Below are positions 18,759-26,850 of a stretch of DNA of 38,141 nucleotides, piece by piece. Positions within the stretch are counted from its first letter, which is position 1. Each line of letters starts with the position of its first letter. Source of the DNA: Spirochaetales bacterium. Its GTDB lineage: Bacteria; Spirochaetota; Spirochaetia; Sphaerochaetales; Sphaerochaetaceae. The notes below the pieces were generated by a model, which saw nothing but the letters and a program-made list of their open reading frames with translations, was not told the origin of the DNA and did no database searches. The position numbers were made by a program, and so were the translations under genes. The stretch is taken from assembly GCA_017618315.1 (NCBI GenBank), contig JAFZUN010000294.1, positions 1 through 38,141 of the forward strand, in the 5' to 3' direction.

Positions 18759-20515
18759 ATGGCGCCGATGATCAAGAAGCTTACAAAACAGATGCTGCTT
18801 GCACAGGTCCTGTCTGTGCTGACCACCTCAATCTGCATGCTTGTGGACAGCCTTGTCATAGGGCGCTGCCTCGGTGTCGGCGCGGTGGCCGCATACGGGC
18901 TCTCAAGTCCCATCCTTCTGATCATCGGGGGCAAGGCACAATCCTCTCGGCCGGGGTGCAGGCTTCCTGCAGCAAATCAATCGGAAAAGGCCAGATAGAT
19001 GAGGCTAACAAGGGTTACTCGTCCGCAGTGGGACCTGCAGTGGGGTTGTCGTTGTTTTTCCTGTTATTTGTGGTTGTCCTTCAGAACTTCATCCCTACAT
19101 GGATGGGAGCAGGCAAATCAGGTGATCTCTTTGAGTCCACAAGAGGCTATCTGATTGGTTTCACCATCGGAGCCCCTGCATGCATGGTGGCGCTTGTCAT
19201 GATCCCGTTCCTGCAGATGGCCGGACAGATGGCACTTCTTATATCAGCTGTGGTGGCAATGACCGTTACAGACATAGCCCTGGACCTTGTCAACGCCTAC
19301 GTGCTTCACTGGGGTCTTTTCGGCATGGGTCTTGCCTCTGCCCTGAGCTACTATGTGGCCCTTCTGGTGGCTATCTGGTATTTCTTCTCCAGTAAAAGCA
19401 TCTTCAAGTTCAGATTCCAGAATGTCAGCCTCTCAAAGGTGGCTGAGCTGTTCAAGAGCGCAATTCCATCAGTGTTCAACATCGGCACAGGTGTGGTGCT
19501 TGTCTTTCTGATCAACAAGATTCTTCTCAGGATAAACGGAAGCGCCGCGGTTGCCGCATACTCTGTGATGACCACACTGGGAAACGCAAGCAACTGCATC
19601 TCCACCGGAGTCTACGGGGTGTCTCTCACCCTTACGGGAATCCTTTATCAGGAGGAGGACAAGACAGGTCTGAAAGTCCTTTTAAAGACATTCATGCCAA
19701 GATGCGTGATTATGGGACTGGCTGTGGGGGCCTTCCTTATGACATGCTCGCCGTTCCTTGTGGATCTTTTCCTCACGGAAGGCGGCGGGGAATCCAAGAC
19801 CATGGCCATAACCGGACTCAGGATTTATGCGCTTGGTCTCATCCCGTGCTGCATCAACAACGCCTTCAAGGGATATCTTCAGGGCTCTGACAGGATCAAG
19901 GCCATAGTGAACTACTCGCTTGCAGAAGGGCTTCTGGTTCCTGCACTGTTTGCACTGATCCTGAGCATCCCGTTCGGAACAACGGGAGTCTGGTTCTACT
20001 TTGTCATAGGAGAAACCCTGGCACTACTCGGTTTCAGCGTCCTTAAGTGGAAGAGGGCAAAGCGCATCTCATTTGCCATGGACACATACCTGGATTTCAA
20101 GAAAGGCTTCGGTGTCAGCCCTGACAACATGCTGGAGTTCGACCTCAAGACAATCCAGGAGGTGGCGCCGGCAGCGGAGGAGGCTGAGAGATTCTGCATA
20201 GAGCACGGACAGACCGAGATGACCGGAAAGTATGTAGCCCTCTGCGTCGAGGAGATGGCAGGCAACATAATCAGGTACGGTTTCTCATCAAAGGGCAAGA
20301 ACAGCATGTCCGTCAGAATCCAGCACAAGGATAACCGGTGGGTCATCCGTTTCCGCGATGACTGCAGGGCATTTGATCCGCTGCATTATGTCTTCAAGAA
20401 GAAAGGGCCCAACATCTCAGGAATAAAACTCATGATGAACATAGCCGATGAGGCAAGATACACATACTCGCTGAACCTGAACAACCTCATGCTGGTTGTG
20501 AACGGAGGTAAATGA
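18759..20515 (+). pseudogene. MATE-type transporter fused to an RsbW-like ATPase domain; single-base frameshift
   Basis: The product is split across two frames. The first 57 codons from 18759 end in LSSPILLIIGG. The rest continues in the -1 frame (GTILSAGVQASCSKSIGKGQ onward) to 20515. The break falls in a run of five G at 18927-18931; one more G would give an unbroken frame of about 585 residues. The transporter has the MATE-like two-half fold. From about nt 20150 a C-terminal HATPase_c (anti-sigma-kinase type) domain follows. It has EEMAGNIIRYGF (glutamates at 20249 and 20252, Asn at 20264), FRDDCRAFDP and GIKLMMNIADEA. A GTG at 18956 could start the second part, but without the first helix. 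Overlaps the next gene. Confidence 0.8.
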
Positions 20516-24851: not shown

Positions 24852-24888
24852 CAGGACTGTCGAATAGAAGCGACGGTCCTGCTTTTTT
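24852..24888 (+). terminator. Terminator of the TctCBA operon
   Basis: An 11-bp stem with one internal mismatch (CAGGACTGTCG at 24852-24862 with CGACGGTCCTG at 24871-24881) is followed by CTTTTTTAT. On the minus strand the same hairpin precedes a moderately T-rich stretch, so it may also end the convergent symporter gene, whose stop is at 24887. Confidence 0.85.
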
Positions 24889-26482
24889 ATACCCGTTGTC
24901 TGAGACGCTCCAGGTTTACTTTTCCCAGCGAATTGCCCAGCAGAGTGATCTGGCACTGCAGGCAGTAGTTGTTCACAGCAACGGTCAGGAATTCGAGAAC
25001 CGCATTGATTGAGATGATGATTGAGAGCGATTGCGCATTGATTCCAAGCTGCGAGAACAGGATTGAGAAGCACACCGTTGTTCCTCCGATCACCGGGGGA
25101 GTGGCGACGGAAAGTATGAACGAAAGCAGGAACGCGGCCAACAGCCATGCCCATGTCACCTCGATTCCAACAAGATTCGCCGTAAAGAGGCTGCATGCGG
25201 TGAATACAATGCAGTAGCCGGGACGGAACAGGATGCCGCCCAGATTGTATGCCAGTGGCGCAAAGCTGTCATCCACGCCAAGGTCTCCGATCATCGTGTC
25301 GATTGTCGTGGAGAAAGCCGCGCCGACGCTTGCGCTCGAGAGGGAGATCATGAACGCAGGAAGCAGTTTGCGCATGAAGATGCGGATTCCCACCTTCAGC
25401 CTGCGGCAGACCACCAGGGTGTAGACAATTATGGTGACTGCTTCACCGATAGCGACAATCAGAATCAGCTTTGAATAACTCTGGATCAGAGAGCGCTGAT
25501 CGGACAAGATCTGCGAGCATATCATGAGTCCCACATAGATGGGGATGAATCGGTTGAGGTATGTGTTGGAGAGAACAGCCACCGTATTGGCCTCATCGAA
25601 TATCTCTGTCAGCCTGTCGGCTTTCCGTCCCATCTTAAGCATGGCAATTCCGAACATGGCGCCTATGATGACGATATGGACTGAGTTGAACTCCAGAATG
25701 GGCGAAAGGATGTTGTTGGGCACAAAGTCTATGATGATTTTCCAGAAATCATAGAAATCAATCGCCATCTTATTTGAGAATCCGAATTTCATTCCCGGCA
25801 CTAGCCACGCGGTATTGATCAGCGTGAGGATGAACGCCACCATCAGGAATGAATGGATCATCTTCTTGCCGACTGTGCTGAAGGTGGATATGTCTCCTAG
25901 CCGTACTATGCCCAGGGCGATGGAGCCGAAGCACATCAGGGTTGCCATGACACACAGAAGCCCTGTGAATGCATTAGTTACCGGATATATGACTTTGGTC
26001 GCGATATCCATCGCCGAGCCCGGGAACAATGTCTTGACGGCAAACGCTATGACCACGCCAGAGACTATTCCGATCAGGATGGACAGAAGCTGGTTTATCT
26101 TCTGCTTTTTCGCCACGGTGAATGTGACGAGGTTCGCTCCGCCCCTATAGCGCCAAGCCATGTCCAGCGTTTCGGAATTTGCCATAAGCGAACCCATGAC
26201 CGAGATGTCGGACTCCTTTTCTTCAAATGGGTTGAAGCTGTTGCCGCGAATGCGCAATGACACCCGCAGCGAACCGAAGAAGCTGGAAAACCGCAGTGAA
26301 GCCAGAGCTTCATCGGATAGAGCATCCCTGTATTTGAGCATGACCTCCTCTAGGAACAGATTCAGCCTAAGTGCATCATTCTTGTCTATGTTTGCCGTTG
26401 AGAGGATCTGCTCAGTCTGCTCAATCGTCTGTGCGATTGATTTCTGATCCAAAGAAAACTTTTCCTGTATTGTCTTGTCCAT
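24887..26482 (-). CDS. SDF-type dicarboxylate/amino-acid:cation symporter with N-terminal RsbW-like domain
   Basis: 531 residues. From residue ~131 it is a DAACS/GltP-like symporter (AMFGIAMLKMGRKADRLTEIFDEANTV; AFMISLSSASVGAAFSTTIDTMI, the serine-rich hairpin; LSFILSVATPPVIGGTTVCF, in place of the usual NMDGT region). It would import dicarboxylates or amino acids with Na+ or H+. Residues 1-130 are not part of the family. ALRLNLFLEEVMLKYRD, LRIRGNSFNPFEE and YRGGANLVTFTV follow the order of N-box, G1-like strand and last strand of an RsbW-type ATPase, but key Asn and Asp residues are replaced (K50, G80), so ATP binding is doubtful. The start ATG lies inside a palindrome, with no Shine-Dalgarno. 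Confidence 0.85.
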   Translation of the reverse strand: MDKTIQEKFSLDQKSIAQTIEQTEQILSTANIDKNDALRLNLFLEEVMLKYRDALSDEALASLRFSSFFGSLRVSLRIRGNSFNPFEEKESDISVMGSLMANSETLDMAWRYRGGANLVTFTVAKKQKINQLLSILIGIVSGVVIAFAVKTLFPGSAMDIATKVIYPVTNAFTGLLCVMATLMCFGSIALGIVRLGDISTFSTVGKKMIHSFLMVAFILTLINTAWLVPGMKFGFSNKMAIDFYDFWKIIIDFVPNNILSPILEFNSVHIVIIGAMFGIAMLKMGRKADRLTEIFDEANTVAVLSNTYLNRFIPIYVGLMICSQILSDQRSLIQSYSKLILIVAIGEAVTIIVYTLVVCRRLKVGIRIFMRKLLPAFMISLSSASVGAAFSTTIDTMIGDLGVDDSFAPLAYNLGGILFRPGYCIVFTACSLFTANLVGIEVTWAWLLAAFLLSFILSVATPPVIGGTTVCFSILFSQLGINAQSLSIIISINAVLEFLTVAVNNYCLQCQITLLGNSLGKVNLERLRQRV

Positions 26483-26745: not shown

Positions 26746-26829
26746 TGCCCAGAACGAGACTCGAACTCACACACCACTGCTGGAACTTGGACCTGAACCA
26801 AGCGCGTCTACCAATTCCGCCATCTGGGC
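26746..26829 (-). tRNA. tRNA-Leu (anticodon CAG)
   Basis: On the minus strand: acceptor GCCCAGA pairs with TCTGGGC, discriminator A at 26746. The anticodon stem CTTGG/CCAAG encloses TTCAGGT with anticodon CAG. A long variable arm (TTCCAGCAGTGG region) marks a class II tRNA, and the T loop is TTCGAGT. CCA is not encoded. It has its own promoter and terminator. Confidence 0.95.
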
Positions 26830-26850
26830 AATTGCAAATGCAACAGTGCA

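Follow-up and report, generated by a model that had tools for sequence, protein, structure and literature searches.

The SDF-family protein encoded in the window (the whole stretch of 38,141 nucleotides that was analyzed) begins with a domain that, judged by structure prediction and profile comparison, has the RsbW/HATPase (GHKL/Bergerat core) fold, and its residue pattern identifies it as a maintained pseudo-kinase that has lost its ATP-binding residues. Relatives of this domain are fused to several unrelated kinds of transporter, and many of these fusions occupy operons together with the phosphatase, STAS protein, and kinase of a partner switch. The most probable reading is a partner switch whose output is a transporter rather than a sigma factor, with the pseudo-RsbW domain acting as a docking platform for the STAS protein.

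The two-part architecture of the window gene (Table 1), which is intact and free of frameshifts when read on the minus strand, recurs in three other MAGs, whose copies are 66 to 78% identical. It is shared with the relatives L002 to L004 and many others; more distant SDF fusions are spread across Spirochaetia, and one genus has several paralogues per genome. A tRNA-like sequence lies just upstream of the gene (window positions 26750 to 26840, minus strand).

Table 1. Positions of the features discussed, in window coordinates or by locus
Feature	Location	Strand	Remarks
MATE transporter with C-terminal RsbW-like domain	18759..20515	plus	single frameshift near 18930-18955
RsbW-like domain of the MATE protein	20132..20494	plus	HATPase_c_2, E 6e-7
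SDF-family protein with N-terminal pseudo-RsbW domain	24887..26482	minus	531 aa including stop
SDF transporter core, residues 133-504	24971..26086	minus	Pfam SDF; diverged
Last strand YRGGANLVTF, residues 112-121	26120..26149	minus	corresponds to YxxGxNxLT of kinases
G1 region RIRGNSFNPF, residues 77-86	26225..26254	minus	Asp lost; Gly80 and F-N-P kept
N-box LEEVMLK, residues 44-50	26333..26353	minus	catalytic-type Glu kept; Mg-binding Asn replaced by Lys50
N-terminal RsbW-like (HATPase_c_2-fold) domain, residues 1-127	26102..26482	minus	predicted from AF2, Foldseek, and hhalign
MATE fusions, C-terminal	window; L004; L028 (second in the window's genome); many others		
GlnQ/TcyN-type amino-acid ABC ATPase fusions, C-terminal	L012/L075, L061/L121, L062/L129, L211		
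EamA fusions, C-terminal	L072/L131, L132		
ABC exporter fusions, N-terminal	L063/L134, L073/L135		
Small proteins with a single TM helix and a pseudo-RsbW domain, no transporter	L125:9994-10458, L127:9487-10011		
MATE loci with the full switch trio (SpoIIE, STAS, RsbW) within 5 kb	L159, L211, L212, L213, L214, L215, L216, L229		

Fold and residues of the N-terminal domain

Even with just four relatives in the alignment, AF2 modelled residues 1 to 127 confidently (pLDDT, 81.5; pTM, 0.77). The model consists of a pair of long helices plus four strands, ordered as in the RsbW core, and low confidence is confined to residues 89 to 103, the site of the ATP lid and G2 box in kinases. When the model was compared with the PDB by Foldseek, ranks 1 to 9 were all anti-sigma factor kinases (Usfx, RsbW, and SpoIIAB; E values of 1e-4 to 3e-3 and TM scores of 0.62 to 0.72). 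Both results agree with a sequence-only reading of this DNA, which had proposed an RsbW-type order of strands and helices at the N-terminus, and the predicted fold is RsbW/HATPase rather than an unrelated one. A full-length AF2 model built from a four-row alignment (pLDDT, 38) was set aside, and only the model of residues 1 to 127 was used.

In profile comparisons, the SDF-borne domain aligned with ten intact RsbW-type kinases over 126 columns (hhalign, E = 5.3e-12) and also matched the ABC-borne (E = 1.5e-11) and MATE-borne (E = 6e-8) domains; a STAS alignment run through hhalign as a negative control gave no match. A sequence profile of the SDF domain recovered no anti-sigma factor from the PDB, its best match being 2een (E = 0.005, judged to be chance), so the homology is visible only by fold and profile-profile comparison. 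Residues 1 to 127 alone matched no relevant Pfam family, 3 of 17 close relatives' N-domains matched HATPase_c_2 (best E, 0.0014), and a viral fold library returned nothing below an E value of 0.001, the best match being a phage HATPase protein. Matches of the window domain to Utp25/TIGR03623 were attributed to chance, and weak profile matches at L074 (translation elongation factor), L014 (methyl-accepting protein), and L053 (197-aa protein) are due to chance or unclear.

An alignment of 76 RsbW-like domains provided the residue counts. The nucleotide-binding residues are complete in all 13 non-transporter kinases, which comprise standalone RsbW, SpoIIE-RsbW, and STAS-APH-RsbW proteins. None of the 40 SDF fusions has the G1 Asp or the G2 Gly pair, and only 5 have the Mg-binding Asn of the N-box. 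Retained among the same 40 are the G1 Gly (36 fusions), the catalytic-type acidic residue, Glu or Asp (37 fusions), and the Asn of the last strand, Asn117 (all 40); across 17 distant N-domains, the four invariant residues are E45, G70, G80, and N117. Aligned with the 13 intact kinases, the window domain has Lys50 in place of the Asn and lacks the G1 Asp, the two substitutions that the sequence-only reading had named, and it lacks G2 as well.

The domains carried by MATE proteins are intermediate: the Asn is present in 7 of 10 and the G1 Asp in 8 of 10, and the G1 Gly is replaced by Cys in 8 of 10. A MATE fusion does lie near the SDF gene, as had been proposed, about 4.4 kb away and recognizable by its C-terminal HATPase_c_2 match. 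Its domain had been called intact, which holds for the Asn and the G1 Asp but not for the G1 Gly, which is Cys, or for the G2 Gly pair, which is lost. A graded loss fits better than the earlier picture of one intact and one degenerate copy. The window's MATE gene is split, with its first ~58 codons (from the start given in Table 1) in a different frame, by a single-base indel near GGGGGCAAGG; this frameshift is probably a sequencing or assembly error.

Among the aligned window relatives, measured against L004, dN/dS is 0.14 for the domain versus 0.04 for the SDF core. Purifying selection on a domain that has lost its catalytic residues marks it as a maintained pseudo-kinase rather than a relic, and the sequence argues against kinase activity. 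Two SDF fusions are apparently broken (L011, at G084:C19:6520-6801, and L144, at G534:C4), with an N-domain reading frame that ends early or is interrupted by stops.

Transporter cores and distribution of the fusions

The Pfam SDF family (PF00375) matches residues 133 to 504 with an E value of 7e-42 (144 bits versus a cut-off of 27.9), and this core can be aligned to the aspartate transporter 9bgz. It is not the normal symporter described in the sequence-only reading, because the NMDGT motif of TM7 reads FRPGY and most TM8 ligands are missing, the equivalents of GltPh D390, D394, R397, and D405 being N, E, T, and L. The canonical Na+/substrate residues are gone in about half of the SDF-fusion cores, that of the window included; about half of the fused proteins still have an NMDG/NMNG-type motif and also keep the D405 position, and unfused SDF paralogues mostly retain NMDGT together with the TM8 ligand residues. 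Given these losses, transport by cores of the window type is not certain, and from its sequence, the window protein may handle another ion or substrate or have a role as a sensor.

At least five types of transporter subunit carry RsbW-like domains: at the N-terminus of SDF proteins and ABC exporters, and at the C-terminus of MATE proteins, GlnQ-type ABC ATPases, and EamA proteins. Judging from the established topology of these families, each fused end should face the cytoplasm. One MATE protein with an RsbW-like domain (L227:7514-10729, 1,072 aa) has about 470 further residues of no assigned kind. SDF fusions are also present in genomes of a second class, that of G395, which is only tentatively Clostridia, and the fusion architecture probably crosses phyla. 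SDF fusions were found in 18 of 395 genomes and MATE fusions also in 18, with 10 genomes common to both (odds ratio, 58; P = 7e-11, with the relatedness of the genomes ignored), and the two fusions are directly adjacent in L004. The pairing seen in the window thus recurs elsewhere, a co-occurrence whose absence the sequence-only reading had named as counting against it.

Partner-switch genes around the fusions

Genes for all three switch components (SpoIIE phosphatase, RsbV-like STAS protein, and RsbW kinase) occur together at L003, L129, L159, L211 to L215, and L229. SDF fusions lie 9 to 58 bp from a STAS or SpoIIE gene at L003, L120, L121, and L129. At L003, STAS lies 58 bp downstream of the fusion and SpoIIE-HATPase is divergent; at L120, SpoIIE is 9 bp from the fusion and an ABC fusion is next; at L121, the order is SDF-STAS-SDF, followed by an ABC fusion; and at L129, from the same genus as the window genome, SDF, SpoIIE-HATPase, STAS, and an ABC fusion form one run. 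A single contig at L124 contains STAS, an SDF fusion, SpoIIE-HATPase, and a MATE fusion, so that L124, like L120, L129, and L211, combines two fused transporters with switch genes in one cluster. For the other families, ~29 bp separate an EamA fusion from SpoIIE in each of two genomes, an intact RsbW gene is 23 bp from the ABC fusion at L075, and the full trio lies within 5 kb of the MATE fusion at 8 of 29 loci.

The STAS proteins of these operons are RsbV-like (E = 1.6e-13) and share an invariant YISSAGLR, whose Ser53 lines up with the first serine in the RsbV motif MDSTGLG, the residue that is phosphorylated in RsbV. The SpoIIE phosphatases carry their own membrane sensor (dCache/HAMP). No sigma factor was recognized among the annotated neighbors in the fusion operons.

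The association is uneven among SDF loci. A switch gene is present within 9 kb of 1 of 38 unfused SDF loci, drawn from the same genomes as the fused loci, versus 9 of 21 fused loci outside genus g18 (P = 2e-4); within g18, none of the 17 SDF-fusion loci has one nearby, and over all 38 SDF-fusion loci, the excess is modest (P = 0.014 at 9 kb and 0.11 at 1 kb). No switch gene lies near the SDF or MATE gene of the window itself, and a place for the SDF gene in a switch operon is ruled out, its neighbors being Tct-type transporter genes and a tRNA/Rnf region. In the window genome (73% complete, 352 contigs), a dCache-HAMP-SpoIIE-HATPase gene with STAS next in line is located on a different contig (C246; L098), so the switch would need to act there in trans.

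Several further genes accompany the switches. MATE fusions with STAS, SpoIIE, or RsbW adjoin NHLP-type bacteriocin export genes or a Nif11-like leader (L211:1691-3865, L212:11863-14031, L229:87-2758, and L216:7561-7914), and with such neighbors, the export of a ribosomal peptide product may be what some of the switches control. A protein of 509 to 554 aa is encoded with STAS on one side and the MATE fusion or SpoIIE on the other (L211:4202-5728, L212:9917-11473, L213:4250-5911, and L217:8443-9972); the L213 copy resembles the GH3-type lyso-ornithine lipid synthetase OlsH, the L211 copy matched no NCBIfam family, and the L212 and L217 copies appear by eye to be related. A three-domain STAS, APH-type kinase, and RsbW protein shares operons with STAS and SpoIIE (L159:8452-10038, L160:9513-11126, L166:7920-9488, and L230:6571-8133), its domain order being confirmed by Pfam for L159 only. 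Clusters of SDF, ABC, and SpoIIE genes contain what by eye is a CstA-like (peptide/pyruvate permease) gene (L120:7389-8849 and L124:12103-13542), an indication that the process under control is the uptake of amino acids or peptides.

A proposed transporter-directed switch, its rivals, and known systems

From gene neighborhood and homology, we infer STAS binding to the fused domain, a dependence of that binding on phosphorylation, and an effect on transport. The pseudo-RsbW domain, at the cytoplasmic end of the transporter, would be the dock for a STAS protein of the RsbV type. The phosphate on this STAS protein would be removed by a SpoIIE phosphatase that senses through Cache/HAMP or another membrane sensor and restored by a distinct, true RsbW kinase, which may stand alone or be joined to the phosphatase or to a STAS-APH protein. 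Only the unphosphorylated form would dock on the transporter-borne pseudo-kinase, changing transport activity, and one switch could serve several transporters. Whether this amounts to a general form of posttranslational control, in which RsbV/SpoIIE switches set the activity of MATE, SDF, ABC, EamA, and exporter proteins, several at once, is a closer call, on which the evidence leans slightly toward yes.

The sequence-only reading had concluded that the fusions point to a shared way of controlling transport. Three further kinds of fused transporter and the operon switch genes favor that conclusion, which is supported in part only, since control is deduced from neighborhood and homology, the symporter core is abnormal, and the loss of residues is graded.

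A different role for the same parts, in which the SDF core binds or transports a ligand and, by capturing or releasing RsbV/RsbW through the pseudo-RsbW domain, feeds a partner switch with its output elsewhere in the cell, is unlikely, yet it is the strongest competitor. Cores of the window type lack the canonical Na+/substrate ligands, as a sensor would; many fusions lie away from switch genes and could act in trans; and there are anchored versions with one TM helix and no transporter (L125 and L127). However, NMDGT-like motifs and the TM8 Asp survive in roughly half of the SDF fusions, the MATE, ABC ATPase, and EamA fusions are improbable sensors, the operon phosphatase already has a sensor of its own, and the annotated operon members include no recognized sigma factor.

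RsbW and SpoIIAB are dimers, and a domain without catalytic residues might simply dimerize, stabilizing or localizing the transporter with no part in signaling; in SLC26 proteins, STAS domains were found to contribute to both stability and function (PMC8256260). This explanation is less likely still, because repeated operon linkage to the RsbV/SpoIIE/RsbW trio is unexpected for a structural part and the carrier transporters differ in oligomeric state. Least credible by far is a functionless, decaying remnant of an accidentally fused anti-sigma factor, with which the loss of catalytic residues and the faster divergence of the domain than of the core would agree but the purifying selection, the invariance of Glu45, Gly80, and Asn117 across distant families, and the occurrence of the domain in two classes and several transporter families do not.

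In textbook accounts, partner switches regulate sigma factors. If transporters are indeed the output, a fast, transcription-independent layer of uptake and efflux control has gone unnoticed in bacteria of the rumen and gut, and many SpoIIE and STAS genes far from any sigma factor would gain a function. Further cases could be sought as transporters with an additional HATPase_c_2-like end of 110 to 130 aa. Every component family is already known; a search of open-access full texts found no description of RsbW-like domains on MATE, SDF, ABC, or EamA proteins.

The RsbU/RsbV/RsbW and SpoIIE/SpoIIAA/SpoIIAB systems, which act on sigma-B and sigma-F, have the same phosphatase, phospho-Ser STAS protein, RsbW-type kinase, and RsbW fold; here, in contrast, the candidate output is a transporter bearing an inactive RsbW, and no sigma factor was recognized among the annotated operon neighbors. 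The NHLP/Nif11 RiPP export clusters (PMC2887384) resemble those loci in which MATE fusions and a switch adjoin NHLM exporters or a Nif11-like leader, and the text of that paper nowhere mentions STAS, anti-sigma, SpoIIE, or phosphatase. In Escherichia coli MlaFB, the STAS protein MlaB binds and controls the ABC ATPase MlaF, and phosphoregulation has been suggested (PMC7367683). There, too, a STAS protein acts on a transporter ATPase, but MlaB contacts the ATPase itself, without an RsbW-like domain, kinase, or phosphatase, whereas the dock proposed here is a fused pseudo-RsbW domain shared by several transporter families; if correct, the proposal offers a testable model for what switches MlaB and other STAS regulators. 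SLC26/SulP proteins, whose STAS domains are important for stability and function (PMC8256260), are likewise secondary transporters with one half of a STAS/RsbW pair fused on the cytoplasmic side, but they carry the STAS half, at the C-terminus, and the fusions described here carry the RsbW half.
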